Part shown: in pieces, positions 5,539-60,095 of the stretch
Position numbering within the stretch: position 1 is the first letter of the stretch
Layout of the letters: the number at the start of each line of letters is the position of its first letter
NCBI RefSeq assembly: GCF_018304965.1
Contig: NZ_JAGQED010000025.1
Location: 1-64,000, forward strand
Length of the DNA stretch: 64,000 bases
Direction of reading: 5' to 3'
Origin: Collimonas antrihumi
GTDB taxonomy: Bacteria; Pseudomonadota; Gammaproteobacteria; Burkholderiales; Burkholderiaceae_D
Position numbers and translations under genes: made by a program
The notes under the pieces: model-generated
What the model was told of the DNA's origin: nothing
Databases searched by the model: none
The model's input: the letters and a program-made list of their open reading frames with translations, nothing else

Positions 5539-5802
5539 TTCTGGTGCTTTCTTTCTGCGTTTGGGACGGGCAAGTATACCGTAACCACGTAACGAGATGA
5601 ATGTGTCCTTGCCGCCGTTTTGCCGCAGATCCGGCTTGCCGTTGATACTGTGCATAGATACATGTTGTTGCAAACCTTACCGATTTGTAGTTACCCTTTT
5701 TATTGCTCAAACTATATTGAATACAGGAATGTGGTTTGTGCTGTCGTTGTGGCGTTGTCTTGGCGGTAAGCAAAGCAAACGCCGGAAGTAAAAGGTGTTG
5801 CC

Positions 5803-6228: not shown

Positions 6229-6246
6229 TCAGACTCAGCCCGTGCA

Positions 6247-6283
6247 AAAACGCTACCCAATTCAAATTGGGTAGCGTTTTTTT
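6247..6283 (+). terminator. Rho-independent terminator after the His/Gly-rich protein gene
   Basis: A near-perfect stem (AAAACGCTACCCAATT with its inverse ending at 6280) and a T-run of seven lie 19 bp after the stop codon. An A-run on the other strand makes it potentially bidirectional. Confidence 0.85.
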
Positions 6284-6398
6284 ACGCATGTCGTGGCCGC
6301 AGGGTGCGAGCAAAATTTTGCCAGGCATCTTGCTGCCAATTAACATGGCGCGTACCATGACGTGAAAGTCCATTCAACTTCCTATCCCGGAGACATGC

Positions 6399-6713
6399 AT
6401 GTCCATTCATATGATTGAAGCGGTTCGTTTTAACGTAGCTGGCGACCGGGTCGAAGAAGTGCGTTGGGGACGGGCAAAGCCCAAGGATGACGGTTCTATC
6501 GGCTGGGAGCACAAAACCTCGGAACAGGATGTCAGCCTGGTGGTTGACGCGCTGCATTTCGGCGATGAGGTTGCCACCGCATTTTCAGTTGATGGAAGAA
6601 TCGTGCGCGGCCCCAGCATCGCGCTGGTGATTTACGAGCACGGGATCGAGGGTATCGGCATGGCTGAATCAGAAGTATCCGGGCGCACGCTGGCAGATTT
6701 GCCGCGATTTTGA
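6399..6713 (+). CDS. Small conserved-looking cytoplasmic protein, function unknown
   Basis: The 104-residue product (MSIHMIEAVRFNVAGDRVEEVRWGR...) has no signal peptide or membrane segment. It is mildly acidic, with regularly alternating hydrophobic residues suggesting a beta-rich fold. The start at 6399 has a GGAGA ribosome site 5 bases away. A second ATG 12 bases on is possible. I do not recognise a named family. It is flanked by a terminator upstream and by the diguanylate cyclase gene downstream. Confidence 0.65.
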   Translation: MSIHMIEAVRFNVAGDRVEEVRWGRAKPKDDGSIGWEHKTSEQDVSLVVDALHFGDEVATAFSVDGRIVRGPSIALVIYEHGIEGIGMAESEVSGRTLADLPRF

Positions 6714-6721
6714 GCCGGATT

Positions 6722-6760
6722 GAATCTGCCATCCGAATCTGCCATCCGAATCTATAATCC
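6722..6760. repeat. Three tandem 13-bp repeats upstream of a diguanylate cyclase gene
   Basis: GAATCTGCCATCC occurs twice in perfect tandem (6722-6734, 6735-6747) and a third time with changes (GAATCTATAATCC, 6748-6760). The array ends 66 bp before the ATG at 6827, so it lies in the promoter zone. The third copy contains TATAATCC, which could double as a -10 element. Confidence 0.6.
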
Positions 6761-6826
6761 ATTAACATCCGCTGACTCCGGCCTTTCTTCAAGCAACCGG
6801 CTAACGATTTTCTGTATTATTGCCCA

Positions 6827-8476
6827 ATGCGAATATTTCAAAGCTTGAAATTCCGCTTTATCGGGCTCGGCGTATTGCTCATCGTTGCCGGTATCTCACT
6901 ACGCGTGTTTTTTGCGCTGCCGTTCGCACAAGAACTCCTGCGTGACGAAGTTGCAAATCAGCAATTATCGATTGCTTCTTATGTCGCGCGCGATATCGAT
7001 CACAGTATCCAGGCAAGACGTGCCCTGATTGGCGAGCTGAGCACGGCGTTGCCGCCAGAACTGCTGCAGCAGCCGGAGAAACTGGCGACCTGGGTCCGTG
7101 AACGGCAGCGAGTAAATCCCTTGTTTAATAGCGGTTTGCTGGTGGTGCGGCCGGACGGCGTTGGCCTGCTAGCCGAATATCCGGCACTTGCGGGGCGCAG
7201 CAATCTGATCTTTTCGGGTGCCGACTGGTTCCAGGCCGCGTTGCATGCCGATTCCCCTGTGATGAGCAAGCCGGAGCGCGGACGCGTCAACGGTGAGCCG
7301 ATCTTGATCATGGCGGCGCCGGTACGCGACGCCGCCAGGCGGGTGGTGGCGGTGCTGGCGGGCGTGGTGGTGCTCAATACGCCTGGTTTTCTCGATCGCC
7401 TGCAAGAAGTCCGGCTCGGAGCAAGCGGCGGCTTTCTTTTGATTTCGCCGGCCGATAAGTTATTCGTCGGCTCTAGCGACCCTGCGATGATATTGAAGCC
7501 GACCCCGGCGCCCGGCGTGAATCTGCTGCACGACCGCGCTATGGCCGGCTTCCGCGGCACCGGGATAACGATTAACGCTAAAGGTGTCGAGGAGTTGTCT
7601 TCCATGGCGACGGTGCCAAGTACAGGATGGTTTGTCGTCGCACGGATACCTACTACGGAAGTGTTTCACCCGATTCAAGCCATGCGGAATTTCTTCCTGA
7701 AAAACACGCTGGCGGTACTGTTCGGCACGATTGCGATATTGATGCTGGTGTTGCCGCGCTTGTTGCGGCCGCTGACGAGTGCGGCGCTGGCGATGCGCGA
7801 AATGGCGGATGGCAAGCGGCCGTTGGCGCCGCTGCCAGTCAAGCGCCGCGATGAAGTCGGCGACCTGGTGCTCGGTTTTAACTACCTGGTGGAACGCTTG
7901 TATGAAAAGGAAGTCGCGCTCAAGGCGAGCGAGGCAAGCATGGCGTTCATGGCGCATCACGATGCGCTCACCGGCCTTTACAACCGCGCTGTGCTGGAAG
8001 ATCGTTTGCAGCAGGCGCTGGCGCGCGCCCAGCGCGACGGCTCGCATTTTGCGCTGCTGTTTTGCGATCTGGATGACTTCAAGCCGATCAACGATCAATA
8101 TGGACACGCGGCCGGCGACGCCGTCTTGCGCCAGGTCGCCGCGCGATTGCTGGACGAACGAAGAGCTACGGATACCGTGGCGCGCCTGGGTGGCGATGAG
8201 TTCGTGATCCTGCTGACGGATCTCAGCGATGCCCGCAGTGGAGCGATTGTCGTGGCTCGGCAATTGCTGGAGTTGCTCGGCATACCTTTCAATGCCGGCG
8301 GCAAGATATTTGAACTCAGCACCTCGATCGGTATCGCGCTGTACTGCGGCACCGGCGTCTCAGCGTCGCAGCTGATGTCGCAGGCCGACATCGCCATGTA
8401 TCGCGCGAAACGGGCCGGCAAGAACGAATTTTGTGTTTTTGATGAAACCTTCGAATCTTTCACGCTGAGAGCGTGA
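6827..8476 (+). CDS. Membrane diguanylate cyclase with periplasmic sensor domain and HAMP
   Basis: A 549-residue inner-membrane enzyme that should make cyclic di-GMP from GTP. The first membrane helix is at about 10-32 and a Cache-type periplasmic domain spans about 35-285. A second helix (about 292-312) leads into HAMP (to about 365) and the cyclase domain (about 385-549). The active motif GGDEF is intact at 455-459. The inhibitory RxxD site (RATD) stands five residues before it, so product feedback is expected. No EAL domain follows. It is probably monocistronic. The ligand of the sensor domain is unknown. Confidence 0.93.
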   Translation: MRIFQSLKFRFIGLGVLLIVAGISLRVFFALPFAQELLRDEVANQQLSIASYVARDIDHSIQARRALIGELSTALPPELLQQPEKLATWVRERQRVNPLFNSGLLVVRPDGVGLLAEYPALAGRSNLIFSGADWFQAALHADSPVMSKPERGRVNGEPILIMAAPVRDAARRVVAVLAGVVVLNTPGFLDRLQEVRLGASGGFLLISPADKLFVGSSDPAMILKPTPAPGVNLLHDRAMAGFRGTGITINAKGVEELSSMATVPSTGWFVVARIPTTEVFHPIQAMRNFFLKNTLAVLFGTIAILMLVLPRLLRPLTSAALAMREMADGKRPLAPLPVKRRDEVGDLVLGFNYLVERLYEKEVALKASEASMAFMAHHDALTGLYNRAVLEDRLQQALARAQRDGSHFALLFCDLDDFKPINDQYGHAAGDAVLRQVAARLLDERRATDTVARLGGDEFVILLTDLSDARSGAIVVARQLLELLGIPFNAGGKIFELSTSIGIALYCGTGVSASQLMSQADIAMYRAKRAGKNEFCVFDETFESFTLRA

Positions 8477-41785: not shown

Positions 41786-43222
41786 ATGACATCTCCCCAA
41801 CCGGTGCAAGTATTAGATCGAGATAGCACCACTCCTGTTACGCAAACGCCGACATCAACGCCGGCAGCAGGCTGGACCATAGCGGCCAGCAGTTTCGCCT
41901 TTATCATCGTGCAGCTGGATATCACCATCGTCAACGTGGCATTGCCGCAGATCGGCGCCGATCTGAACGCGCGTGTCTCGGCCTTGCAGTGGGTGGTGGA
42001 CGCCTACACCCTCGGTTTTGCCGTGTTTCTATTGTCGGCCGGAGCTTTGGGCGACAAATTCGGTTCCAAGCGCCTGTTCCTGGCCGGCTTCCTGTTGTTT
42101 GCCCTGGCTTCGGCCGCCTGCGGCCTGTCGCCCAATGCCGCCTTTTTGAATATTGCCCGGGCAATCCAGGGAATCGGCGCGGCGTTGCTGGTGCCTAGTT
42201 CTTTGGCGATCCTGAATCGTGCTTGTGCCCACGACAAGAAACTACTGGCCAAAGCCATCGGCCTCTGGACCGCGGCAGGCGGCGTTTCGATTGCCGCCGG
42301 CCCGGTGTTAGGCGGTTTACTGTTGGCGACTGCCGGATGGCGCAGTATTTTTTGGGTGAATATTCCGATTTGCATCCTGGGTTTCATGCTGACCATGCGC
42401 GTGGTGCCAACCATGGCAGCCAAACAGCACACACATTCCTTCGATTTCCTGGGGCAGATACTGGCGATTTTTGCGCTGACGGGACTGGTTGGCGCGGTGA
42501 TCGAGCTTCACCCGTTAGGCTTGGGACACCCGCTGGTGTTGTCCGGATTCTGCCTGGCGCTGGTCGCCGGCGCCGCCTTCATCATGGTGGAAAAAAAGGT
42601 GGCGCATCCGATGCTGCCTTTGAATTTCTTTCATCAGACCAGTTTTACAGCAGCCGTCTTGTTTGGGGTGCTGGTGAATTTTTCCTACTACGGCGTGATT
42701 TTCGTGATCAGTTTTTATCTGCAAAAAGTGCAGGGCTACAATCCGATGCAAGCGGGGTTGGCGTTTTTGCCGCTGACCGGCACCTTCATTCTTTCAAACC
42801 TGGTCAGCGGCTGGCTGATCGGGCGTGCCGGCATACGTTTGCCGATGGTGCTGGGCGGTTTTATCGGCGCCTTGGGGTATGGTTTACTCGGGACGATCGG
42901 GATTGCGACAGACGCCAGTTTCCTGCAGATGCTGCCGGGTTTCGTGCTGATCCCGGCCGGCATGGGACTGGCTGTGCCGGCCATGACGACCTCGATATTA
43001 TCGAGTGTCGAGAAAGCTCGGGCCGGGACCGCATCTGCAGTACTCAATACCGCCAGGCAGGTCGGCGGAGCGGTCGGAGTGGCGGTATTTGGCGCACTGG
43101 TCAGCGATAGTTTCGGCGGGGATGCGATTGCCGGCGTCAAAATTGCGATGTTGACGGCGACAATTTTGCTATTGATGGCGGCCGGGATGGGTTATCTGGT
43201 TCGGTCAACTAACGGCAAGTGA
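41786..43222 (+). CDS. DHA2-type (14-helix) MFS efflux pump
   Basis: A 478-residue drug:proton antiporter of the EmrB/QacA branch. The first helix carries QLDITIVNVALPQIGADL, which is diagnostic, as is the motif C-like PVLGGLLLATAGWRSIFWVNIP. It exports hydrophobic compounds from the membrane. No membrane-fusion partner lies next to it. It is transcribed away from the ArsR-like gene across a 100-bp gap, so shared regulation is likely. Confidence 0.92.
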   Translation: MTSPQPVQVLDRDSTTPVTQTPTSTPAAGWTIAASSFAFIIVQLDITIVNVALPQIGADLNARVSALQWVVDAYTLGFAVFLLSAGALGDKFGSKRLFLAGFLLFALASAACGLSPNAAFLNIARAIQGIGAALLVPSSLAILNRACAHDKKLLAKAIGLWTAAGGVSIAAGPVLGGLLLATAGWRSIFWVNIPICILGFMLTMRVVPTMAAKQHTHSFDFLGQILAIFALTGLVGAVIELHPLGLGHPLVLSGFCLALVAGAAFIMVEKKVAHPMLPLNFFHQTSFTAAVLFGVLVNFSYYGVIFVISFYLQKVQGYNPMQAGLAFLPLTGTFILSNLVSGWLIGRAGIRLPMVLGGFIGALGYGLLGTIGIATDASFLQMLPGFVLIPAGMGLAVPAMTTSILSSVEKARAGTASAVLNTARQVGGAVGVAVFGALVSDSFGGDAIAGVKIAMLTATILLLMAAGMGYLVRSTNGK

Positions 43223-43352
43223 GTTGAACGCACACAGCTAAATTCGGATGTCTTTCAAAAAATAAACAACAAATGTATTTTAAAAAATGCATGACTTTAT
43301 TTTAAAATAGGATATATCATATAAAATATATTAAAAAAATGGAGATAGCCTG

Positions 43353-44387
43353 ATGAAACATTTATTGACCTTGGTATTAATTCTCATCGTTGGTTTGAGC
43401 GGTCAGGTATTTGCCCGAGACTTGACCGTAGTCTCTTTTGGCGGCGCCACGCAAGACGCCTTTAATCGCGCTTACTTTCAGCCGTTCTCTGCACAGGCGA
43501 AGAAGCGGATCGTACAAGATAGCTATACGGGCGGCATTGCTCGTCAAAAGGCGATGGTGGAGTCCGGCAACATCACGTGGGATGTGGTGCACATGGATGA
43601 AAATGAAATGGCGTTAGCGTGCGACCAAGGCTTGCTTGAAGTGATCGATTTCAAGCAGTTGTCAAATGCCAGGGACGTCGCCCCGGTTGCGCTTTCCAAG
43701 TGTGGCGTGGGCGCGTTTGTCTGGTCGGAAGTCATCACCTACGATAGTAAAAAATTCGGTATGGATGGGCCTAAAACCTGGGCCGAATTCTGGGATATAA
43801 AAAAGTGGCCCGGTAAACGCGGTTTGCGCAAGCAGGCCCGGATGACAATTGAAATTGCGTTGATGGCAGATGGCGTCAAGCCGGCTGATGTGTACAAATT
43901 GCTCGCGACGAAAGCCGGACAGGACAGGGCATTCGCCAAGATGGACCAGATCAAGTCGAGCATTCAATGGTGGGAGTCTGGCGCACAACCGCTGGAGTGG
44001 CTGGCGTCCGGAACTGTTGTTGCAACTGCCGCCTATAGCGGACGTATCGCGATTGCAAACCGCGAAGGCAGTAATTTTCCGATCAGTTGGGACAATCAGC
44101 TATACAGCATGGATTACTGGACCATCATCAAGAACACGCCTAACAAAACGGCTGCGCTTGAGCTGTTGAACACGATGCTGAGCGCTGATAGACAAAAGAA
44201 TTTCACCGATCTGATTCCTTACGGCATCGTCAATACGCGTGCTATCGACATGATCAAGCCGGATGTCCTTGCGCAACTGCCCACAGCGCCGCAAAACCTG
44301 AAGACGGCGCTGCTGCTGGATACCCATTTCTGGGTGGATCATGAAGAAGAGATCATGGCGCGATTCAATAAATGGATTGTGCAGTAA
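43353..44387 (+). CDS. Polyamine-type ABC transporter binding protein
   Basis: A 344-residue periplasmic solute-binding protein. The signal peptide ends at VFA (about residue 21). The mature start RDLTVVSFGGATQDAFNRAYFQPF and TWDVVHMDENEMALACDQG are typical of the PotD-like family that binds polyamines and related amines. ATGGAGATAGCC precedes the ATG. The upstream 130 bp are strongly AT-rich and probably contain the operon promoter. First of five co-directional genes. Confidence 0.9.
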   Translation: MKHLLTLVLILIVGLSGQVFARDLTVVSFGGATQDAFNRAYFQPFSAQAKKRIVQDSYTGGIARQKAMVESGNITWDVVHMDENEMALACDQGLLEVIDFKQLSNARDVAPVALSKCGVGAFVWSEVITYDSKKFGMDGPKTWAEFWDIKKWPGKRGLRKQARMTIEIALMADGVKPADVYKLLATKAGQDRAFAKMDQIKSSIQWWESGAQPLEWLASGTVVATAAYSGRIAIANREGSNFPISWDNQLYSMDYWTIIKNTPNKTAALELLNTMLSADRQKNFTDLIPYGIVNTRAIDMIKPDVLAQLPTAPQNLKTALLLDTHFWVDHEEEIMARFNKWIVQ

Positions 44388-44454
44388 ATAACAACCAAAG
44401 CGCGGCGGCCGATACGGTTCGGGTCGTTACGTACTCAGTTGTATCATCGCCACC

Positions 44455-45807
44455 ATGAAGGATCGCGTTTTGCCTACACCGTCCGTTCCAGTATCGCTGC
44501 AGCAGGCGATACGCCAATCGACACAGCGCAAGCGGACTATCTCGTTATTGCTGATGGCTCCGCTGACGTTGTATATCGCTATATTTTTTATGCTGCCGAT
44601 AGGAATGATGTTTTATCGCGCAGTCGCCAATCCGGAAATGATCGAAGCCATGCCGCGCACCGTTAAGGCATTGGCGGCGTGGCGAACTACGACCGCATTA
44701 CCGCCGCCAGAGGTGTACCAGGCAGTGGGTGATGATCTGATTGCCGCCAGCGGTAGTAAGCCGCTCGGTGAAATGGCCCGGCGTTTCAATTACGAAGCCA
44801 GTGGCTATCGTAGCCTGATTCTGAAAACCGCCAGGCACTTGTCGCAGACAGATGCAGCGCCGGTTCCGGCGTGGAATCCCAATGCGGTGGCCGTGAATGA
44901 TTTGCTGGCTCCAATTGCTGCAAACAGCGATGCCGTCAATGTCGCCGCGCCAGCACTGCCAGACATGCGATCGCGCCTGGGGGCGATCGATGAACGCTGG
45001 AGCGACCCCGATCTCTGGCTTTCCCTGCGTCGTGTGGCACCCGCCTATACCCCGTACTACCTGTTGACGGCGCTCGACTTACGCATGACAAACGATGGCG
45101 GTATCGGCCGTATGCCAGAGGACCAGCGCATTTACCTGAATATCCTTTTCAAGACAGTCAAGATTGCTTTGGTAGTTACGTTGATATGCCTGTTCGTCGG
45201 TTATCCGCTGGCTGCACTGATGGTCAAAGCGCCGAAATGGTTTGGTTTTCTATTGCTGATGGGGGTGATGTTGCCTTTCTGGACCTCGCTGCTGGCGCGT
45301 ACCACTGCCTGGATCGTCGTGTTGCAAGAAGGAGGGCTGGTGAACAAATTGCTGTTGGCGCTGAGCCTGATCGACAAACCGGCGGAGCTGATATTCAATG
45401 CCACCGGTTTGTACATCGTCATGGTCCACATCCTGCTGCCGTTCATGGTGTTGCCGATTTATAGTGCGATGAAAGGCGTTGCACCGCAGTTCATGCGTGC
45501 ATCGGCGTCGCTCGGCGCACACCCGGTACGCGGCTTTTTCCGGGTATACCTGCCGATGACCATGTCGGGCGTCGGCGCCGGCGCATTGCTAACGTTTATC
45601 GTCGCGGCAGGGTATTACGTTACGCCGTCGCTGGTCGGCGGCGCCAAGGAACAGATGCTGGGTTATTTCATCGCGTTCTATACCAATACCACCATCAACT
45701 GGGGTATGGCATCGGCATTGGGTATCGTGATGCTGAGCTGCATCATGCTCATATATATCATCGCCGCACGCACCATCGGTGTCCGTCAAATCGTAGGGCT
45801 GCGTTAG
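44455..45807 (+). CDS. ABC transporter permease (PotB type) with an enlarged periplasmic loop
   Basis: A 450-residue inner-membrane permease. The first helix (about 28-48) is followed by a loop of nearly 180 residues before the canonical five-helix core. The EAA-type loop GVAPQFMRASASLGAHPVRGFFRVYLPMTM is intact and would dock an ATPase. PotB proteins are usually about 290 residues, so the long loop is notable, though such loops occur in related permeases of other proteobacteria. Ribosome site is not obvious at 44455. Confidence 0.88.
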   Translation: MKDRVLPTPSVPVSLQQAIRQSTQRKRTISLLLMAPLTLYIAIFFMLPIGMMFYRAVANPEMIEAMPRTVKALAAWRTTTALPPPEVYQAVGDDLIAASGSKPLGEMARRFNYEASGYRSLILKTARHLSQTDAAPVPAWNPNAVAVNDLLAPIAANSDAVNVAAPALPDMRSRLGAIDERWSDPDLWLSLRRVAPAYTPYYLLTALDLRMTNDGGIGRMPEDQRIYLNILFKTVKIALVVTLICLFVGYPLAALMVKAPKWFGFLLLMGVMLPFWTSLLARTTAWIVVLQEGGLVNKLLLALSLIDKPAELIFNATGLYIVMVHILLPFMVLPIYSAMKGVAPQFMRASASLGAHPVRGFFRVYLPMTMSGVGAGALLTFIVAAGYYVTPSLVGGAKEQMLGYFIAFYTNTTINWGMASALGIVMLSCIMLIYIIAARTIGVRQIVGLR

Positions 45808-45817
45808 GAGTTTTATC

Positions 45818-46633
45818 TTGAATCATTCGCATCTATGTCTGATAAGCAAGTCGCTGCACTATGTGTTTGGTGCAGTGATGATGGCGTTTCTGATCGTACC
45901 CCTGATAGCCGTGGTGCCGATCTCGTTCAGTGCCGGCAGCTTTCTTTCCTATCCGCTTCCGGGTTTTTCGACGCAGTGGTACCAGACGGTATTTACTTCG
46001 GGGCCGTGGATGGATGCGTTGCGCAATAGTTTGATCGTTGGTGTCGCTTCGACCATGCTGGCGACCGTGATCGGCACGCTGGCAGCGCTAGCCTTCGCGC
46101 GCCGCAATCTACCGGCGGCGCGTACCTGGCTGGCGTTTATGATTTCACCCATGATCATTCCATCGGTGATCAGCGGTTTGGGTATGTACTTCCTGTTCGG
46201 TCAGGTCGGTCTCGCGTCCACGTTGCCAGGGTTGGTACTGGCGCACGCTGTGCTGGCAACACCGTTTGTCTTGATCACAGTCACGGCGACATTGCAAGGC
46301 TTCGACATGAATCTGCTGCGCGCCGCCGCCAGCCTGGGCGCATCGCCGATACGCGCTTTTTTCAATGTTGCGATCCCACTGATTTCACCTGGCATGATTT
46401 CCGGTGCGCTGTTTGCATTCATGACTTCGTTTGATGAAATCGTCGTCGCACTGTTCATCAGCGGTCCGTCTCAACGCACTTTGCCGCGACAGATGTTCGA
46501 CGGTATTCGCGACAGCATCAACCCCTCCATCCTGGCGATGTCGTCCTTCTTGCTTCTACTGGCAGTGTTCGTTCTGCTGGCTGCCGCTTGGATGGCGCGT
46601 CAATCAAAACAACATCTCACTAGCAACGGATAA
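45818..46633 (+). CDS. ABC transporter permease (PotC type)
   Basis: A 271-residue, six-helix permease beginning with TTG at 45818 (AGGAG seven bases upstream). The cytoplasmic coupling loop reads DMNLLRAAASLGASPIRAFFNVAIPLI. It follows the first permease by 10 bp. No ATP-binding subunit is encoded in this operon or elsewhere in the neighbourhood, so the pair must use an ATPase from another locus. Confidence 0.9.
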   Translation: MNHSHLCLISKSLHYVFGAVMMAFLIVPLIAVVPISFSAGSFLSYPLPGFSTQWYQTVFTSGPWMDALRNSLIVGVASTMLATVIGTLAALAFARRNLPAARTWLAFMISPMIIPSVISGLGMYFLFGQVGLASTLPGLVLAHAVLATPFVLITVTATLQGFDMNLLRAAASLGASPIRAFFNVAIPLISPGMISGALFAFMTSFDEIVVALFISGPSQRTLPRQMFDGIRDSINPSILAMSSFLLLLAVFVLLAAAWMARQSKQHLTSNG

Positions 46634-46637
46634 TCAC

Positions 46638-47582
46638 ATGAATGTTCTTGATCCCCGCAACAATCACGGCGTCGCCTATGTGGACGATGCATACATGCCG
46701 GTCCACGAAGCGCGCATGCCGTTGCTCGATCGTGGTTTTGTCCGTTCCGACGCCACCTACGATGTCGCTCACGTATGGAAGGGCAGCTTTTTTCGGTTGG
46801 ATGATCATATCGATCGATTTTTTTCATCGATGCATGCCCTGCGTATGGCATTGCCACACAGCCATGAGGAGATTGCAGCCATCCTGATCGAGTGCGTGCG
46901 CCTGAGCGGCTTGCGCGACGCCTACGTGCAGATGACATGTACACGTGGTGTGCCACCGCCGAGCTCGCGTGACCCCCGCGATTGCAGCAACCGTTTCTAT
47001 GCGTTTGCGACGCCATTCGTCTGGATCGCCAATGACACGCAGCGTCGCGATGGGCTACCCATGGTGCTGAGCAGCGTGACACGGATTCCACCGGAATCGG
47101 TGGATCCCCGCATCAAGAATTTCCACTGGCTGGATTTGACGATGGGTATTTTCGAGGCATACGACCGGCAAGCCATCGTAGCTCTTTTGCACGACGGGCA
47201 TGGCAACGTTACCGAAGGCGCCGGCTTCAACGTCTTCGTCGTCAAAAACGGTGTGCTGTCGAGTCCGGCACGAGGCGTTTTCGAGGGGATGACGCGTCGG
47301 ACGGTAAGCGAATTATGCGTATTGCTGGAACTGCCCTGCGAATTTCGATTGGTCAGGGTGTTGGAGATGCTGGACGCAGACGAAATATTTCTTACCAGTA
47401 CTGCCGGAGGCATCATGCCGGTTTGCTTGCTTGATGGCAGACCGGTTGGCACTGGTATGCCAGGGCCGATCACCGCATTGTTGATGTCGGAATACTGGGC
47501 TCGCCAGGAACAAGGCTGGCTTGGCACGCCTGTGACGAATTATCCGATAAACGCGAACGGGAACGGCGCATGTACATCGTAA
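46638..47582 (+). CDS. Fold-type IV PLP aminotransferase, resembling (R)-amine transaminases
   Basis: A 314-residue class IV aminotransferase. The PLP lysine is Lys160 in DPRIKNFHWLDL; Glu193 in VTEGAGFNVF holds the pyridine nitrogen. The segments RSDATYDVAHVWKGSFFRLDDHIDRF and SPARGVFEGMTRRTVSEL are close to (R)-selective amine transaminases of the Arthrobacter ATA-117 type, as I recall that sequence. D-amino-acid or branched-chain aminotransferase activity remains possible. It is 4 bp after the permease gene and overlaps the SDR gene by 13 bases, so it is part of the uptake operon. Confidence 0.88.
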   Translation: MNVLDPRNNHGVAYVDDAYMPVHEARMPLLDRGFVRSDATYDVAHVWKGSFFRLDDHIDRFFSSMHALRMALPHSHEEIAAILIECVRLSGLRDAYVQMTCTRGVPPPSSRDPRDCSNRFYAFATPFVWIANDTQRRDGLPMVLSSVTRIPPESVDPRIKNFHWLDLTMGIFEAYDRQAIVALLHDGHGNVTEGAGFNVFVVKNGVLSSPARGVFEGMTRRTVSELCVLLELPCEFRLVRVLEMLDADEIFLTSTAGGIMPVCLLDGRPVGTGMPGPITALLMSEYWARQEQGWLGTPVTNYPINANGNGACTS

Positions 47583-48313
47583 CCGGCGGTACCCACGGCA
47601 TAGGCGAAGCTGTCGTCAGGCGTTTGGTTGCAGCAGGTGAACGCGTATTGTTTACCGGGCGCGAACAGGTTGCCGGTGCAGCGTTGGAAGCCGCACTTGC
47701 CGGCGCCACCTTCGCACGTGGCGACGTCTCGATCGAACAAGATTGCATCAATGCCGTGGCGCAGGCGATGGAACTTGGTGGCGGCAAGTTGAAAGGCCTG
47801 GTCAACAACGCCGGCACATCTTCGCGCGCCAAATTTCGCGAAGCTACAATCGACGATTGGGATCGGGTGTTCGCCGCCAACGCCCGTTCGACCTTTCTGT
47901 TTACGCGTGAAGCCTTGCCCGGGTTGATTGCGGCGCGGGGAGCGGTGGTCAATGTGTCATCGATTGCGGGTAAGGTGGGGGAAGAAGGCCTTGCCATTTA
48001 TTGCGCATCGAAAGCCGCCGTGTTGGGACTGACGCAGGCGCTGGCGCTCGAGTATGGTAAGGAGGTTCGCTTTAATGCTGTGTGCCCGGGCCAGATCGCC
48101 ACGCGCATGATGGACAAGGTGGTTGCCGACAGCGCTCGCCTGGCAGCACTGACCTATCGCATACCGGCCGGGCGGCTGGCGGAGCCAAGCGAGGTGGCGG
48201 AAGCGATTTACTGGTTGTTGTCATCGGCCGCCAGCTATATCAACGGCGCGGTACTGACTGTGGATGGCGGCGAAACAGCAGGTTTGCGTACCCCGGCGCT
48301 ACTTAACTCCTGA
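47570..48313 (+). CDS. Short-chain dehydrogenase/reductase
   Basis: A 247-residue classical SDR. The cofactor motif TGGTHGIG is at 5-12, NNAG at 79-82, the catalytic Ser at about 130-131, and Tyr144/Lys148 in YCASK. The C-terminal NGAVLTVDGGETA is typical of 3-oxoacyl-ACP reductase-like SDRs. It would oxidise an alcohol or reduce a ketone, possibly handling the keto product of the transaminase. Last gene of the operon; a Tn3-type inverted repeat begins 24 bp after its stop. Confidence 0.9.
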   Translation: MYIVTGGTHGIGEAVVRRLVAAGERVLFTGREQVAGAALEAALAGATFARGDVSIEQDCINAVAQAMELGGGKLKGLVNNAGTSSRAKFREATIDDWDRVFAANARSTFLFTREALPGLIAARGAVVNVSSIAGKVGEEGLAIYCASKAAVLGLTQALALEYGKEVRFNAVCPGQIATRMMDKVVADSARLAALTYRIPAGRLAEPSEVAEAIYWLLSSAASYINGAVLTVDGGETAGLRTPALLNS

Positions 48314-48336: not shown

Positions 48337-48374
48337 GGGGTCATGCCGAGATAAGGGTAAAAATAACCCATAAC
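48337..48374 (+). repeat. Tn3-family left inverted repeat
   Basis: A 38-bp end starting with GGGG and containing CCGAGATAAGGG and ATAACCCATAAC. The four G at the tip and the position 167 bp before tnpA suit a Tn3-family terminal repeat. Confidence 0.7.
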
Positions 48375-48540: not shown

Positions 48541-51500
48541 ATGGCATCGATCGAACGTACCGCGTATCCTCGTTTTCCCAACGTCCTTCCAAGTCGGGAT
48601 ATTCAGGCTTACTACACGCCCTCTCCGGAGGAAATTGAATGGGTTCGCAGCCTAGCCCGCGGTCAGGACACCCAGCTCAGTGTGCTGGTACTGCTTAAAT
48701 GCTTCGAACAACTTCACTACTTTCCACCAGTCGCGGATATTCCTCCAGAAATTGTTTCGCATATCGCGGCTGTGCGCGGATTTCCGGTTGCCAATACAGT
48801 CGTCTACAACAGCGCGACCACGCTATACCGCCACCATGCCGCCATACGCAAATATCTTGGCGTCTCCCCGTTCGATGGCCCAGATGCCAGAAAATTGGCC
48901 ATTCGTGTCGCCCGGGAGGCGGCTCAGGTGGTGGATATGCGGACTGACATTATCAATGCGATCGTAGAAGAACTGATTGGCTGCCACTACGAACTGCCTG
49001 CTTTTAGTACGTTGGACAAGATCGCCGAACAGGTTCACACAACTGTTCAAGACCAGCTTTTCAAACGTGTCGCCAAACGACTCACTAGCGAACAGCATGA
49101 TTATTTAGAAAACTTGCTGGCCACCGAACTCGCACAACGACAGACGCAGTTCAATCAGATCAAGCGTAGTGCCAAGCGCGCGTCTAAAAAGCATCTGGAA
49201 AACCTACTCGACCATCTCACTTGGCTGGAATCCTTAATTGAAGTTGACCAGCCTCTGGAAGGTATTCCGTTATCAAAGCTCAGGCATTTCGCCAGCCAGG
49301 CGATGGCGTTAGACGCCGCGGAATTAAAAGGCTTGAACGTAGAAAAGCGCCACACCTTGATTCTTGCTCTGATCCGCAGCATGCGTGTGCGAGCACGCGA
49401 CGATTTGACTGAGATGTTCATCCGCCGCATGGCAGTCATTCACAAGCGTGCCAGAGAGGAGTTAGCCAGCATTCAGTTGCGCCAGCGTGCGCTATCTGAG
49501 CGCCTTGTCGAGAAATTGGACAGCGTCCTTGATATCTTGGTAGACGATCTCGGCGACCAGAGAACTGGCTTAGAGATACGCAAACTCCTGGCGCCCGGCG
49601 GCAACCTGGAACGTTTGAGAGAGGAATGCGAGGCCATCCGGGTATGGAGCGGGAAGAATCATCTGCCGTTATTGTGGAAGCCGTTTACGAGCCATCGCGC
49701 CATCATTTTCCGGATTGCCCGCGTGCTTGTCTTTGAGTCGGTTACGCAGAACCGGGCATTGCTGGATGCGCTCAACGTGGTGTTGGAAAACGAAACTCGT
49801 CGTACTGACTGGGTGGAGGACGTCGTGGATCTTTCATTTGCAACCGACCGGTGGCATAAATTGGTCAAGCGTCCTCACGAAGACGGTGAACCTACCAACC
49901 GGCGCTATCTGGAACTGAGCGTATTTTCACATTTGGCTAGTGAGTTACGCTCCGGCGATGTTTGCGTGGCTGGATCTGAAACATTTGCAGACCACCGGCA
50001 GCATTTGCTATCCTGGGAGGAATGCCAAAAGATGCTGCCCGCTTATTGCGAAAAAATTGGGCTCCCCGATAATGCCAAGGATTTCGTCGCCGTACTCAAA
50101 AAGAAACTTGCTGACAAAGCCGAAGAGGTTGATCGTGAGTTTCCGGATCATCACGGCGATGTCGTTATTGGCCCTACCGGCGAACCGGTGCTGAAGCGGG
50201 TCACCGCCAAGGAAATCCCCGCATCAGCGATCGCATTGCAGAGTACGATCATGAATCGGCTGCCGACCCGCAATTTACTTGATGTGTTGGCCAATTTGGA
50301 GCATTGGGTACGGTTTACGCGGCATTTTGGACCGATTTCCGGCAGCGATCCCAAACTTAAACGTGCGGCAGAGCGTTATCTACTGACCATCTTCGCATTG
50401 GGATGCAATCTGGGGCCGAATCAGGCTGCCAGGCACTTGGCAGGTGACGTTACGCCGCACATGCTGTCCTTCGTGAACCGTCGGCATATGACGGTCGAAA
50501 ATCTGGATGCAGCCATCCGCGACCTGAATGAACTACACCTGCGCCTGGATTTACCTAAACTCTGGGGCGACGGCAAGTCAGTAGCGGCTGACGGGACACA
50601 GTACGATTTTTACGAAGAAAATCTGTTGGCCGGCTTCCATTTCCGATATCGGAAAATGGGCGCGGTCGCTTACCGACATGTAGCCAATAATTATATTGCG
50701 GTATTTCGCCATTTCATCGCTCCCGGTGTCTGGGAGGCGATCTATGTCATTGAAGGCTTGCTGAAGGCCAAATTATCGGTGGAAGCTGACACTGTCTACT
50801 CGCATACCCAAGGACAATCGGCCGCCGTCTTTGCTTTTACGTATTTGCTCGGGATCAATCTGATGCCGCGTATTCGCAACTGGAAAGATCTGGATTTGCA
50901 GCGCGCAGATAAGAAGACGCGTTATAAGCACATTGACCGTTTGTTTACCGAGACGACCGATTGGGGCCTGATTGAATCGGAATGGCAAAACATGATGCGC
51001 ATTGCGCTCTCCATCCAAGCTGGCCGCATTGCGTCACCACTCTTGTTGAAGAAATTAAGTGCGCACACTGGACGCAGCCGCCTGTTTGCCGCGGTACGTG
51101 AGTTGGGCGGTGCAGTACGCACCATCTTTTTACTCAAATGGATTTCGGATATCAAGTTACGGCAAGAAGTGACCGGCGAGACCAATAAAATGGAATCCTA
51201 TAACGGCTTCGCAAAATGGCTCTCCTTTGGGGGCGACGTGATCGCACAGAACGATCCAGAAGAACAACAAAAGCGGCTGCGCTACAACGACCTCGTAGCG
51301 GCTGCCGTGATCTTACAGAATACGGTGGACATGATGCGCGTCGTTCAAACATTGGTCGCCGAGGGGCATGAAATCGACATCTCCGACTTGACGTTCTTGA
51401 GCCCTTACATTACCAGCGGGGTCAAGCGATTCGGTGACTACCACCTCAACCTCAAACGGACACCAGAACAATGGATCCGCGATACTTTATTTCGCAAAGC

Positions 51501-51546
51501 GGCAACTGAATCACGTCGAAAGGGAAATGAAGGGGAAAACGCATGA
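48541..51546 (+). CDS. tnpA: Tn3-family transposase TnpA
   Basis: A 1001-residue DDE transposase, full length for the family. The N-terminal DNA-binding region opens MASIERTAYPRFPNVLPSRDI. The catalytic core holds SVAADGTQYDFYEENLLAGFHFRY with an acidic residue, and later LIESEWQNMMRIALSIQAGR and TNKMESYNGFAKWLSFGG with the C-terminal Glu. It cuts and joins the 38-bp ends in replicative transposition. Its stop overlaps tnpC (ATGA). The frame is intact, so the enzyme may still act in trans. Confidence 0.95.
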   Translation: MASIERTAYPRFPNVLPSRDIQAYYTPSPEEIEWVRSLARGQDTQLSVLVLLKCFEQLHYFPPVADIPPEIVSHIAAVRGFPVANTVVYNSATTLYRHHAAIRKYLGVSPFDGPDARKLAIRVAREAAQVVDMRTDIINAIVEELIGCHYELPAFSTLDKIAEQVHTTVQDQLFKRVAKRLTSEQHDYLENLLATELAQRQTQFNQIKRSAKRASKKHLENLLDHLTWLESLIEVDQPLEGIPLSKLRHFASQAMALDAAELKGLNVEKRHTLILALIRSMRVRARDDLTEMFIRRMAVIHKRAREELASIQLRQRALSERLVEKLDSVLDILVDDLGDQRTGLEIRKLLAPGGNLERLREECEAIRVWSGKNHLPLLWKPFTSHRAIIFRIARVLVFESVTQNRALLDALNVVLENETRRTDWVEDVVDLSFATDRWHKLVKRPHEDGEPTNRRYLELSVFSHLASELRSGDVCVAGSETFADHRQHLLSWEECQKMLPAYCEKIGLPDNAKDFVAVLKKKLADKAEEVDREFPDHHGDVVIGPTGEPVLKRVTAKEIPASAIALQSTIMNRLPTRNLLDVLANLEHWVRFTRHFGPISGSDPKLKRAAERYLLTIFALGCNLGPNQAARHLAGDVTPHMLSFVNRRHMTVENLDAAIRDLNELHLRLDLPKLWGDGKSVAADGTQYDFYEENLLAGFHFRYRKMGAVAYRHVANNYIAVFRHFIAPGVWEAIYVIEGLLKAKLSVEADTVYSHTQGQSAAVFAFTYLLGINLMPRIRNWKDLDLQRADKKTRYKHIDRLFTETTDWGLIESEWQNMMRIALSIQAGRIASPLLLKKLSAHTGRSRLFAAVRELGGAVRTIFLLKWISDIKLRQEVTGETNKMESYNGFAKWLSFGGDVIAQNDPEEQQKRLRYNDLVAAAVILQNTVDMMRVVQTLVAEGHEIDISDLTFLSPYITSGVKRFGDYHLNLKRTPEQWIRDTLFRKAATESRRKGNEGENA

Positions 51547-55261: not shown

Positions 55262-57916
55262 TTAAAGCTCGCGCATTCGTTGTACTGCCGGGACGCGCGT
55301 TTCCCACTGAGCGCCAATCACTGCGACAACAACTGAGACAATCGCCACACCGACCAGGGCGGCCAAATAGAGCCACGGCACACTGAGCAACTCGGGCGGG
55401 GGATCGAAAACACCCGTCAAGAGCTTGACCAACATCCAAGCGAGCGCAAAGCCGGTCAGTATTCCGGCGCTAGTCCCGGCGATCAAGAGCAATGCGGCTT
55501 CGCTCCAGAGAAACGCGCCGAGCTGACGGGGTTTCGCTCCGAGCGCCGAAAGAATGGCGAAGGTGCGCCGTCGGTCGGCAAGTCCGAGAGCAAGAATAAG
55601 TCCTGTTGACCCGGCCACCAGAAGAACGGCGATGCCAAGTTCCAGGCGCGTCAGTCCGCCAAGATCGACCGCGGTCAGGCTGGATCCGATGAGGTGCCGG
55701 GCTTGACCAAGGTCGGTGACCTTGACCCCTGGCAACGCGGCGACGAGAGCCCGCGCTGCCGCCGCAACTTGCACGGGCGCAGTGGATGTCTTTAGCAGAA
55801 CGAGTTCGGCCGCGTCGGCATTGGTCTGCTGTGCAACGTAGCGGGCATTGGCCACCAGGAAAGAGTCACGCGGCGCGGTCGGAAATTCACGCACCACGCC
55901 AATGAAGTGGAATCTGGCAACGCGATACTGATGATCCTGTGCATTTTGCAGCCGCAGGTTGATCTCATCGCCGACATGTAGTTGGAAATCCTTGACGGTT
56001 TCCTCCGAAACAAGAATGCCGTCAGGAGTTCGCGCAAGCAGGTCGAGCGTCTTTTTTGCATTTCCGCCCTCGAAGTACGCATCCGACATCCGCGTTGCAT
56101 CCCCAATGTGCGTGGCGTCTATCCCGTACAGGTCTTGCAGGTCGGTACCAACGTAGGCAAGCCGGTGCTGCATCGGTTGCGCAGCACTCACGCCGGGTAG
56201 GGCTGCCAGCGCCTTGAGCTTGGTTGACGCCGGTGTCTGTGACGTACCCGTGACCGTTACGTCCGCACCATTCGTGAGTTCGGCGTCGACGCGCGTCTGC
56301 GCATTGTAGGTTGTGTTGAAGACGGCCGTCGACGTCGCGAAAGCAAAGGCCAGCGCAACCAGGACGATACCCTGCGTCATTCGTTTGCGCTGCCGGCTGA
56401 TGGCGGCGGCAACGACTCCCGAAAGGGACCCCGCGATAGGCTTCAGCCATCTGGCCAGGCGTTCGCGCCCGCGACCGAGCCCCACCAGGCACAACCGGAT
56501 GGTTAGCAGCCCCAGACCCAGCCATAGCAAGACCGGCGCGAGAAAGGCCTGGTAATCCACCGAGGACGCGGGCGTTCCTTCGGGTGCCAGCACCACCTGA
56601 TAGCCGGTACTCCATGTTCGCCAGAAGATGAGGGCCGACAGGGCAATGAGAATGAAGTCGAAGCCGATGCGTTGCCAGAGTCGGGCGCGTTCGTTGCCGA
56701 TTGTCATCCGGGCCGCCGCGACCGTTTTCTGTCTCGCATCGAGCCATGCCGTTGCGAGAATGGCGGCAGGGGCAAGCAGAACGCCAGCCAAGACAGCGGC
56801 GGCGATCCAGCCGATGGCGGACGCGGCGAAAATACCAGCGCCGAGCAGCATGCGGGACAAGAGCGTGGCCAGCAATAATCCGGTAATTGTGCCGCCCATG
56901 CCAACGCACGCCGCTTCGACCGTCGCCAGTTGCATGATTTGCGTGCGCGCGGCCCCCCGAATTCGCAACAGTGCTTGATCGCGTCGGCGCCGGTCGGCGC
57001 CGGATGCCACCACCGCGATCGTCAGAAAAGCAGCCAGGAGTGCCCCCGGTGCGCCGAGAAACAAAAATAGCACTTTGGCATACAGTGCGTCACTGCGTAC
57101 GGCATCGAGCCTCGCCGCCAGATTGTCGGCCACGATTGCGTTACCCGCAATGCGTGCCTCAAGGTTTCTCGCCGCCCTTTGCACCGCTGCAAAAGCTGCC
57201 TGCGGATCGTCCGGAAGGCTGGCATGTGCCAGCTGTACATGCAGTTGAACGCGAATAGAATCCGGCTGGATGGCCGCCTGCGGATTGAACAGGCGGTGCC
57301 ACGCGTCGATGGGCATCAACAGGACATTGTCCGGGGGCGCTTGCGGTGCCGCCCCAGCCGGAATCCCAACGGTCTGGAATATCGAATCAGCATGCGGCAA
57401 ATCGACAATTCCAGCCACACTGACCTCGGCTGCCGCAAGGCCGGCACGATGGATCGTCACAGAATCGCCGACCGTCACATGCAAGTTGGCCGCCGTTTGT
57501 TGTGTGACGAGAACGCCATCCAGGCTGCCAAGCAGCGTCCGCAACTGCGCCGGATAATCATCGACGTAGGACGCATCGAAGCCGAGCACCTTGCCTTTGC
57601 CGGTGGTCTGCACGGTCGCACCGGTATGGGCTTCGAACCCGTCCACATCGGCATAACCAACCGTTTGCAGCCTGGACACTGCAGTAGCTTTTCCAATGGC
57701 TGCGGCAATCGACTGCGCGGTCGTCCCGGGAACCAGTTGCACCTGCCAGTCGACCGGCACCCCTGCGACCGCGCGGCGCGTCATGGAAGCGGCACTCTGA
57801 GCCAGAAATGCGCCAAGCGCGGCCAACAACGCCACGGTCAGCATAATGCCCGCCGCGGCACCGACGAGGCGCCCCTTGCGTTCCTTGACGAGGCCGAAAA
57901 ACCACAACCAGGTCAT
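55262..57916 (-). CDS. FtsX-type ABC transporter permease, double-length
   Basis: An 884-residue permease. An N-terminal helix (about 20-40) is followed by a large extracytoplasmic domain. A three-helix FtsX core lies around 270-400. Two more helices precede a second extracytoplasmic domain (about 520-740), and a second FtsX core ends the protein. The layout is that of two MacB/LolC-like halves fused. The start at 57916 (MTWLWFFGLVKERKGRLVG) overlaps the preceding ATPase stop (ATGA). It likely moves or extracts a lipid, lipoprotein or peptide rather than pumping through a channel. Confidence 0.85.
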   Translation of the reverse strand: MTWLWFFGLVKERKGRLVGAAAGIMLTVALLAALGAFLAQSAASMTRRAVAGVPVDWQVQLVPGTTAQSIAAAIGKATAVSRLQTVGYADVDGFEAHTGATVQTTGKGKVLGFDASYVDDYPAQLRTLLGSLDGVLVTQQTAANLHVTVGDSVTIHRAGLAAAEVSVAGIVDLPHADSIFQTVGIPAGAAPQAPPDNVLLMPIDAWHRLFNPQAAIQPDSIRVQLHVQLAHASLPDDPQAAFAAVQRAARNLEARIAGNAIVADNLAARLDAVRSDALYAKVLFLFLGAPGALLAAFLTIAVVASGADRRRRDQALLRIRGAARTQIMQLATVEAACVGMGGTITGLLLATLLSRMLLGAGIFAASAIGWIAAAVLAGVLLAPAAILATAWLDARQKTVAAARMTIGNERARLWQRIGFDFILIALSALIFWRTWSTGYQVVLAPEGTPASSVDYQAFLAPVLLWLGLGLLTIRLCLVGLGRGRERLARWLKPIAGSLSGVVAAAISRQRKRMTQGIVLVALAFAFATSTAVFNTTYNAQTRVDAELTNGADVTVTGTSQTPASTKLKALAALPGVSAAQPMQHRLAYVGTDLQDLYGIDATHIGDATRMSDAYFEGGNAKKTLDLLARTPDGILVSEETVKDFQLHVGDEINLRLQNAQDHQYRVARFHFIGVVREFPTAPRDSFLVANARYVAQQTNADAAELVLLKTSTAPVQVAAAARALVAALPGVKVTDLGQARHLIGSSLTAVDLGGLTRLELGIAVLLVAGSTGLILALGLADRRRTFAILSALGAKPRQLGAFLWSEAALLLIAGTSAGILTGFALAWMLVKLLTGVFDPPPELLSVPWLYLAALVGVAIVSVVVAVIGAQWETRVPAVQRMREL

Positions 57917-58590
57917 ATGTCCTCCACCGGGTTGACTGTTTCGATGAGGGTGCCGCGCTCCATTTGCCACATCCTCTCCATGCGCTCGGCCACCGCCGGA
58001 TCATGGGTAGCGATGACGAGCGCCGTTTGCGTACCTGCGAGATGCGCGAGAAGCGCATCGAGCAATGCGCGGCCGGTTGGCCCATCGAGTTGGCCGGTCG
58101 GTTCGTCGGCCAGGATCACGTTGGGGTTGCCGACAATCGCACGGGCCATGGCGACACGTTGCATCTGCCCACCGGATAGCTGTTCGGGCAGTTTGCGTGC
58201 CAGGTTCTCCAGACCGAAGGTGGTGAGCGCATCCGCCACCGCCCTGTGGATATCGCAGGTCGCTTTCGCCATGAGCAGCGGCAGCGCAACGTTCTCACTC
58301 ACCGTCAGCGGCTCCAGCAAGCTCGGCGCCTGAAACACCAGCGAAATCTTCTCTGGCAGTAGCGTTTCGGCGGTGCCTAACGCGGGCCATGTGACCGCAC
58401 CGCTCGTCGGGACGTCGAGTCCTGCCATCAGGTGCAATAAGGTCGACTTGCCGCTTCCGGATCTGCCGACCAGCGCAACGCGGTCCCCCGCATGCAAACG
58501 GAATGTCGCGGAGGCGACCGCTGCAATAGATACCCCGCCTTGCGGGTAACGCCGGCCCACCGATTGGGCCTCGATCAGGGTGTCAGGCAT
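57913..58590 (-). CDS. ABC transporter ATPase (LolD/MacB type), second of two
   Basis: A cytoplasmic ATPase of about 225 residues. Walker A GRSGSGKST, signature LSGGQMQRVAMARAI, Walker B VILADEPTGQLD and the switch His (ATHDP) are intact. The start at 58590 (MPDTLIEAQSVGRRYPQGG) gives a short overlap with the upstream ATPase gene; in-frame ATGs at 58605 and 58632 would lengthen it. With the first ATPase it probably forms a heterodimer under the permease. Confidence 0.88.
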   Translation of the reverse strand: MPDTLIEAQSVGRRYPQGGVSIAAVASATFRLHAGDRVALVGRSGSGKSTLLHLMAGLDVPTSGAVTWPALGTAETLLPEKISLVFQAPSLLEPLTVSENVALPLLMAKATCDIHRAVADALTTFGLENLARKLPEQLSGGQMQRVAMARAIVGNPNVILADEPTGQLDGPTGRALLDALLAHLAGTQTALVIATHDPAVAERMERMWQMERGTLIETVNPVEDI

Positions 58591-59305
58591 GAGTGATACG
58601 TCCATCTCGAATGTGGAGGAGACGGTCGGCATGTGACGTGAATGCCATGCTGTGCGTCGCGATCAGGACCGCGCCCCCTGCGCGGCATCGTTCCATCAAA
58701 TGGTTCAGGATGCTGGCTTCGGTGACCGCGTCCACTTCCGCGGTGGGCTCGTCCGCCAAAAGCACCTGGGGATTTGACGACAAGGCTACTGCCAGCCCGG
58801 CGCGCGCAGCCTCGCCCCCCGACAGTTGAGATGGATAAGCGCGGCGTTGGCGGGTAAGGCCCATCACTTCCAGCAAGTGGTCGATGGTGCGCTGATCGGA
58901 TTGTCCAGACAGCGACATCTGCAGCCTCATATTGGCCTCCACCGTGAGGTGTTCAAACAGGTTGCCCGATTGCATCAGGATACCGATGTGCCGAGCTCGC
59001 AAAGCGGCGCGAGCAGCTTCTGACCGCCGCGACATACGCAGCCCCATCACCTCGACATGACCGCCATCCGGCTCATCCAGCCCGGCGAGGCAAGCCAGCA
59101 GCGTCGACTTGCCGCTCCCGGACGGCCCCATCAGGGTGACGAATTCCCCCGCCCGCAGCCGCAGCGAGACGCCGCGTAACGCGGCCGTCTCGTCGTCGCC
59201 GCTATGGAAAAAACGGTAGAGTTCAACCGCTTCCAACGGCGACACTTCAGCGCCATTGGAATGAATTTGACATGAGTTCCCATTGGTCGGCATTATCGGC
59301 TCCAA
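58583..59305 (-). CDS. ABC transporter ATPase (LolD/MacB type), first of two
   Basis: A 240-residue ATPase. Walker A GPSGSGKST, signature LSGGEAARAGLAVAL (LSGGE instead of LSGGQ), Walker B VLLADEPTAEVD and ATHS switch are present, so it should hydrolyse ATP. It differs clearly from the second ATPase encoded next to it. The start overlaps the end of the exported-protein gene by about 50 bases; Met5 at 59293 is an alternative. Genes from 59843 to 55262 form one tightly overlapping operon. Confidence 0.88.
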   Translation of the reverse strand: MEPIMPTNGNSCQIHSNGAEVSPLEAVELYRFFHSGDDETAALRGVSLRLRAGEFVTLMGPSGSGKSTLLACLAGLDEPDGGHVEVMGLRMSRRSEAARAALRARHIGILMQSGNLFEHLTVEANMRLQMSLSGQSDQRTIDHLLEVMGLTRQRRAYPSQLSGGEAARAGLAVALSSNPQVLLADEPTAEVDAVTEASILNHLMERCRAGGAVLIATHSMAFTSHADRLLHIRDGRITHA

Positions 59306-59843
59306 GTGGCGCAGAGAGATCGAGAGTGGCTAGCTTGCCGCCCCGATAGATCAGATAACGATTGCTCTCCAGTCGCAATTGTTTGTTCGTGACGGCGTTC
59401 GGTTCGGAATTCGATGTGTAAACGATCCGCAGCGCCGGGCCGGCGTGCAGCATCACGTTCCTGATCGCTACTACCTTTACCGCGCGACCAGCCTTGACCA
59501 GCAGGGCGGCCTCATGATCGGCCGCAGATGCTGCAGTGGGCGCACTGGCAGCGGATGCGACGGTGACGTTGACTGCGTTGTACTTGTCAGAAAAGCTGGC
59601 CCCATCACGACGATCGGTGCGCGCCCAACCCTCCGGCACCTTGAGCGAAAAGCCCAATGGCGACATATAGGTAACAAAGGCCTGGGTGTCTGGAATGTCA
59701 CCGGGTGGATTCTTTTCCGGCGCGGCCGGCCGTTCCGTTGCTATGGCTGGCGTGCCCACGATTGGAGCGCTACCGATCAGAGTTGCCAACGCAACGATGA
59801 CCATTGCGGCTAGCCGCGGGTGTTGCTTGACTCTGTGCTGCAT
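59247..59843 (-). CDS. Exported protein of the ABC operon, PsbP/LpqN-like outline
   Basis: A 198-residue protein with a signal peptide (hydrophobic to about residue 30, TPAIATE). The mature part contains GFSLKVPEGWARTDRRDGASF, a pattern seen in PsbP/LpqN/Mog1-type folds, and a C-terminal ESNRYLIYRGGKLATLDLSAP strand pair. It has no lipobox Cys. It is first in the operon with two ATPases and the permease, so it may be the extracytoplasmic partner or cargo. Function unknown. Confidence 0.7.
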   Translation of the reverse strand: MQHRVKQHPRLAAMVIVALATLIGSAPIVGTPAIATERPAAPEKNPPGDIPDTQAFVTYMSPLGFSLKVPEGWARTDRRDGASFSDKYNAVNVTVASAASAPTAASAADHEAALLVKAGRAVKVVAIRNVMLHAGPALRIVYTSNSEPNAVTNKQLRLESNRYLIYRGGKLATLDLSAPLGADNADQWELMSNSFQWR

Positions 59844-60095
59844 GGTGGCTCCTTTCTTGAACGGGCCTAGCTCACGTGCCGGGCCTTGCGGCGCGCATAC
59901 TGGTTAACGCCGATTGCGTAATAGGTTTGCCAGCACCGGTCCGAACCACGCATGGGTTTCTCCCCGCTACATCCATAGAAAACGCCATTGCGCATTGCTC
60001 CGGCACGGATGCAAGGTTTGAGACCCGAGACGAGGATTAGCATGCCATCCTTTCGCAGCTTGTCTATCCGTATTCCATGGATAGAAACGGGGGCG

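Follow-up and report, generated by a model that had tools for sequence, protein, structure and literature searches.

An aminotransferase akin to (R)-amine transaminases in a divided gene cluster with its own predicted importer, regulator and variant split transketolase in Collimonas antrihumi

The 64,000-nucleotide stretch of DNA analysed here (the window) carries five genes head to tail on the + strand at 43353-48313, as delimited by open reading frames and profile matches. The first encodes a binding protein (SBP) of the polyamine/GABA/opine family (43353-44387; 344 aa; SBP_bac_8, 3e-38) and the next two encode ABC permeases. Permease 1 (44455-45807; 450 aa; NCBIfam PotH 6e-49 and PotB 5e-44 over residues 194-440) has a PotB/PotH-like C-terminal half and a long N-terminal extension; the region of ~190 residues ahead of its permease domain (44455-45130) is also found in its paralogue from a gab cluster on contig C3 of the same genome. 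Permease 2 (45818-46633; 271 aa, TTG start; NCBIfam PotC, 2e-48) is PotC/PotI-like and has a paralogue at 48% in the same gab cluster. They are followed by a fold-type IV aminotransferase (AT; 46638-47582; 314 aa; Aminotran_4, 6e-38), which we assign to an RDPR-loop subfamily in the (R)-amine transaminase clade, and by a classical SDR (47570-48313; 247 aa; adh_short_C2, 8e-56) with TGxxxGxG, NNAG and YxxxK motifs. The SDR is nearest to 2,3-butanediol dehydrogenase and FabG types; its first PDB match is the 2,3-butanediol dehydrogenase 6xew, and it matches BudC at 2.5e-59, below the family cut-off. Intergenic gaps are 67, 10 and 4 nt, AT and SDR overlap by 13 nt, and an EmrB-like MFS gene (41786-43222) precedes the operon. 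The order SBP-P1-P2-AT-SDR is repeated in Mesorhizobium (L024), Motiliproteus (L049), Variovorax (L099) and a genome of the same genus (G408), and the shorter order SBP-P1-P2-AT in Shinella and Brucella (L020-L023). Since the same order recurs across genera, it is not due to chance, and the five-gene linkage described in the original prediction is real, with its association of transporter and SDR genes conserved.

No ABC ATPase gene lies within or beside the operon interval in the window. On the opposite strand, at 58.1-59.2 kb, are two genes for ABC ATPases that match at only 31-40%, and no ATPase remnant was found in the window past the transposase described below. A true loss was rejected, as a matching ATPase is encoded on contig C40 of the window's own genome. 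The polyamine-type ABC importer that had been predicted is thus incomplete in the window, which encodes the SBP and two permeases, and its putative ATPase sits elsewhere. Searching this genome with Variovorax query proteins located on C40 genes for a GntR regulator (834-1562, - strand), the C and N chains of a split transketolase (TKC, 1756-2739, and TKN, 2743-3630, both - strand), a class III transaminase (AT-III; 3709-5169, + strand), the ATPase (5153-6298, + strand; TIGR01187 polyamine cut-off passed, 381 vs 356 bits) and an SSADH (6354-7808, + strand; TIGR01780 cut-off passed, 733 vs 646 bits). In G408, eleven genes are contiguous on a 5.57 Mb contig as SBP-P1-P2-AT-SDR / GntR-TKC-TKN / AT3-ATPase-SSADH; its SBP is 88% identical to that of the window, and the C40 half has ~87% DNA identity to it. 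On the evidence of this alignment, the window operon is one half of an eleven-gene set whose other half is on C40. The ATPase, split transketolase, class III transaminase, SSADH-type aldehyde dehydrogenase and GntR genes are the partners found near the five genes in relatives, some of which also carry PDH-like E1/E2, glyoxalase or HDAC-family amidohydrolase genes.

Collinearity with G408 stops at 48299-48300, in the last SDR codons, and resumes at C40:846 (blastn), with only ~39 bp of G408 between the two points. A Tn3-family transposase gene (48541-51546, + strand; DDE_Tnp_Tn3, 1.5e-130; NF033527 over cut-off) begins 228 nt downstream of the SDR. Judged from these alignments, strain-specific DNA starting near this transposase gene parted the cluster into two halves; a 2-kb piece from further along C17, the contig of the window (57900-59900), had no good match in three same-genus genomes. 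A reading of C17 48.3-66.5 kb and C40 1-845 as the two ends of one insertion was considered and not adopted, as a contig gap lies between them. A GGGG-starting 38-mer just past the SDR (48337-48374) resembles a Tn3-family end; no further copy was found in the genome with up to 3 mismatches allowed, and a repeat search showed no such pair.

The two halves have a 13-bp element in common. In the window, GATATATCATATA (43311-43323, + strand), a putative GntR operator, is the single match with at most one mismatch in 64 kb, where 0.02 would be expected, and lies 30 bp ahead of the SBP start. In 18 kb of C40, one exact match (0.01 expected) lies in the divergent TKN/AT-III promoter, and G408 has matching elements at both the SBP and the TKN/AT-III promoters. 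In Variovorax L099, GGATATATCC occurs exactly twice, ahead of SBP and ahead of AT-III; similar elements are present in Motiliproteus L049 and Shinella L134, and no related element was found ahead of the operon in L020-L024. The GntR/FCD regulator is the natural candidate to bind these elements, and the shared element would place the window and C40 halves under joint control.

The class IV aminotransferase (TRANSAMINASE) finds its best PDB sequence matches among (R)-amine transaminases and their close kin (E 1e-82 to 1e-72), with phmmer matches to 8zm7, 6xu3 and 4ce5 at E<1e-78, whereas the bit scores of solved D-amino acid transaminases are ~95 to 102, compared with 278. In a maximum-likelihood tree of 99 proteins it is sister to the Shinella/Brucella enzymes of L020-L023 (support 100/97), in a large clade that adjoins 4CE5, 8ZM7, 6XWB and 6XU3. 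The BCAT and D-AAT-like proteins of the same genome do not cluster with it; they lie far off on long branches, so their position is approximate and we read the tree for the exclusion of BCAT and D-AAT and not for the exact joint. The best 50 Foldseek matches in the PDB to an AlphaFold2 model (pLDDT 88.5, pTM 0.86) were all transaminases that are (R)-selective or close relatives of such enzymes. Sequence, tree and predicted structure therefore agree on the (R)-amine transaminase kind originally proposed, and the phylogeny gave no placement with D-alanine or branched-chain enzymes. Three of the 15 genomes of the genus carry the enzyme, in one case as a protein at 51% that is not near any such cluster; across the order, 7 of 399 genomes have it at E<1e-50. 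In the wider collection the closest proteins come from Alphaproteobacteria, a pattern that suggests horizontal transfer.

To compare active sites we used the residue map of the Aspergillus fumigatus (R)-transaminase (PMC8320979, Table 2). The window enzyme conserves Tyr58, Val60, Trp183 and the TTAG turn, in the form of Tyr41, Val43, Trp164 and STAG 254-257, whereas His53 and Glu115 are changed to Arg36 and Gln98. Arg126, which holds the pyruvate carboxylate in (R)-transaminases (PMC8320979), is replaced by Ser109 in the window enzyme, and 80 of 92 relatives have Gly at this position. Two residues further on lies Arg111-Asp-Pro-Arg114, near-invariant at 88 to 91 of the 92 relatives per position. 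The E. coli-type BCAT positions Gly39 and Arg97 correspond to Val43 and Gln98, which do not match the BCAT signature. The nearest characterised clade is that of the (R)-selective amine transaminases 4CE5, 4CHI, 6XU3 and 3WWH, which share with the window enzyme the fold, the P-pocket (Val60 and the STAG/TTAG turn), Tyr58, Trp183 and the catalytic Lys at ~41-44% identity (Foldseek). It differs from them in having Ser109 in place of Arg126 and RDPR at 111-114, in the changes Glu115 to Gln98 and Ile117 to Thr100 that mark its nearest subclade, and in its setting within a putative transporter/transketolase regulon. By descent and predicted pocket, then, the enzyme belongs to the (R)-transaminase kind and, within it, to a subfamily whose carboxylate loop has been rebuilt; because of that loop we do not claim strict membership of the (R)-amine transaminases. 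A second RDPR-loop branch, 53-55% to the window enzyme, occurs on Ancylobacter and Sinorhizobium plasmids (L102 8235-11108 and L103 8179-11185). Its neighbours there encode an Lrp regulator, a glycine C-acetyltransferase-like protein and deacylases (ArgE/M20), and this branch perhaps serves a 2,3-diamino or beta-amino acid route with CoA-dependent cleavage of the ketone.

The binding protein offers a hint to the substrate. Its best PDB matches are the GABA sensor Pf622 (9d57/6dgv), then AgtB and MotA. The GABA contacts of Pf622, namely W9, T13, F100, F102Y, W202, R205, D228 and Y264 (PMC12999171), align in order with F29, T33, F122, W124, Y228, R231, D254 and Y290 of the SBP. Thus the GABA-contact Arg, Asp and Tyr are kept (Arg231, Asp254 and Tyr290 for Arg205, Asp228 and Tyr264), and across seven SBP homologues the Arg and Tyr are invariant and the Asp position is Asp or Glu; the lining differs at W9 (F29), F102 (W124) and W202 (Y228). 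Since the residues for both ends of GABA are kept, an amino-acid zwitterion is favoured over a plain chiral amine. The genome already has an ordinary GABA cluster on C3 at ~22.8-30.2 kb (L018 4796-12185), with gabD, a GABA-type ABC transporter, gabT and MocR nearby, so the second system should serve something other than GABA. Common to the C3 gab cluster and the divided gene set are the transporter family (SBP at 49%, permeases at 42-49%), an SSADH and a class III aminotransferase; the divided set adds the class IV transaminase, the SDR and the split transketolase, and has a GntR/FCD regulator where gab clusters have a MocR/GabR-type one. The opine-type proteins AgtB and MotA are of the same SBP family, with the family-wide Gly-Arg at the ligand site, but the window cluster, unlike opine systems, has no opine-cleaving enzymes and its SBP scores slightly higher with the GABA sensor (183 vs 173 bits). 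Norephedrine-like amines, chloramphenicol amine, (R)-3-aminobutyrate, 5-aminolevulinate, rhizopines and fumonisin-like amines were also considered as substrates and not adopted.

The split transketolase is the second unusual enzyme of the set. The closest solved structure, 6YAJ (E 5e-66 with the Variovorax chain), is a split transketolase from Carboxydothermus hydrogenoformans and has the same two-chain build. Human and Carboxydothermus transketolase read GEDG(P/A)S(Q/H) at a site where all eight close AT-linked C chains, and that of C40, read GFYGTSHH, with Tyr in place of the Asp. This Asp, which we take to be human Asp424 and yeast Asp477, recognises the donor in transketolases; the change from GEDGxS to GFYGTSHH in the cluster enzyme therefore implies another substrate. 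Of 399 genomes of the order only 3 have the variant, among them the genome of the window, and it is linked to AT in 8 loci with several gene contexts. Among AT genomes without a linked copy, it occurs in 4 of 7 near relatives and in 0 of 19 distant ones (hypergeometric ~0.002, calculated by hand); with the linked cases added the counts become 12 of 15 and 0 of 19 (p 8e-7), in a comparison of related genomes whose near set is not a clade and whose linked cases were not blind. In the near relatives L026, L027 and L028 no such variant was found. GFYGTSHH transketolases also occur apart from a class IV transaminase, in L123 4165-12332 (G138) and L124 4104-12278 (G098), beside BKACE, carnitine-dehydrogenase-like, iron ADH, GMC oxidoreductase, shikimate-dehydrogenase-like and Liv-type transporter genes, the BKACE, carnitine-dehydrogenase-like and GMC names being read by eye from the sequence, with no family search. 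The variant therefore has a wider use, and AT and transketolase are not obligate partners. M. soli G415 (L136 1-10147) has SBP-SBP-P1-P2-SDR together with the split transketolase. There, the place of the class IV transaminase is taken by a class III enzyme that resembles glutamate-1-semialdehyde aminomutase, and the class IV gene is at another site of the genome (L025).

Based on the observed gene content and order, contiguity in G408, shared element, co-occurrence, enzyme family and pocket residues, we propose a pathway whose substrate and order of steps we infer. Our preferred reading, tentative and held at a little short of an even chance, is a GntR-controlled regulon that imports and breaks down a GABA-like compound, either an amino acid or an amino alcohol, whose amine has the (R) configuration. 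First, the window SBP, P1 and P2 would import the zwitterion, with the ATPase from C40 energising the window permeases. The class IV transaminase would then take off the (R)-amino group to leave a ketone or alpha-hydroxyketone, and the SDR would oxidise or reduce the neighbouring carbon; 2,3-butanediol dehydrogenases act in hydroxyketone chemistry, so the likeness of the SDR to them may be a faint hint of the substrate. The thiamine-dependent split transketolase-like enzyme would cleave the C-C bond beside the carbonyl. Finally, the class III transaminase would remove another amino group, further along or at the end of the molecule, and the semialdehyde so formed would be oxidised by the SSADH to a dicarboxylate that enters the TCA cycle. 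A more specific form, to which we give appreciably less credence, is that the RDPR-loop class IV transaminases form a separate functional family, converting an (R)-amino acid or amino alcohol to an alpha-hydroxyketone that is cleaved by a neofunctionalised, non-phosphate split transketolase. If true, enzymes of the (R)-amine transaminase kind, so far mainly used in biocatalysis, would have a pathway in nature.

A counterpoint to the proposed pathway is that PDH-like E1/E2 genes adjoin AT in L020-L024 and L101, instead of or beside the transketolase. They would suit transamination of a D-amino acid, or of a D-configured beta- or gamma-amino acid, in which the RDPR Arg would trap the carboxylate and the 2-oxo acid would pass to the thiamine enzymes, whether transketolase-like or PDH-like E1/E2. 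R111 and R114 are near-invariant in the O-pocket loop, and the carboxylate trap of D-amino acid transaminases includes that loop (PMC8320979). However, tree and structure place the enzyme with (R)-amine and not D-alanine transaminases, the genome has a separate D-AAT-like gene, and the SBP site is of the gamma-amino acid type; we consider this route unlikely. The polyamine-type transporter, the omega-amine type of the class III transaminase and the genes of the HDAC/acetylpolyamine-amidohydrolase family beside AT in L099 (two), L039, L041 and L101 would suit the breakdown of a hydroxylated or acetylated polyamine such as 2-hydroxyputrescine, through HDAC-family deacetylation where present, two transaminases and the SSADH last. 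This we think distinctly improbable, as the window genome and G408 have no close HDAC gene (best 36-37%), the SBP retains the Arg whose Pf622 counterpart touches GABA, which is a ligand with a carboxylate, and the transketolase is left unexplained. Least probable in our view is the route originally predicted, in which a plain chiral (R)-amine is imported and deaminated to a ketone with pyruvate as acceptor and the ketone is reduced or oxidised by the SDR: its (R)-transaminase-kind enzyme, with the kept Tyr58, Val60, Trp183 and TTAG/STAG equivalents, and its conserved AT/SDR adjacency stand, but the pyruvate-binding Arg126 has given way to Ser109, or to Gly in most relatives, the SBP has a GABA-type site, and the transketolase, class III transaminase and SSADH of the regulon would play no part in it.

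Returning to the regulon that we favour, each of its enzyme and transporter families is already known; what sets it apart is the combination of an (R)-transaminase-type subfamily with its own importer, a regulator and an altered split transketolase. In the open-access papers searched we found no description of this gene combination or of a natural role for (R)-transaminases, which does not prove the combination new. The natural roles of enzymes of the (R)-amine transaminase kind are poorly known, as the original prediction said. The proposed regulon, which is conserved and seems to have spread horizontally, surrounds one such enzyme with an importer, a regulator, an operator-like element and downstream enzymes, and so gives a concrete way to seek its natural substrate. 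The split transketolase with its altered signature is a second unusual enzyme in the same proposed pathway, and it and the transaminase narrow each other.
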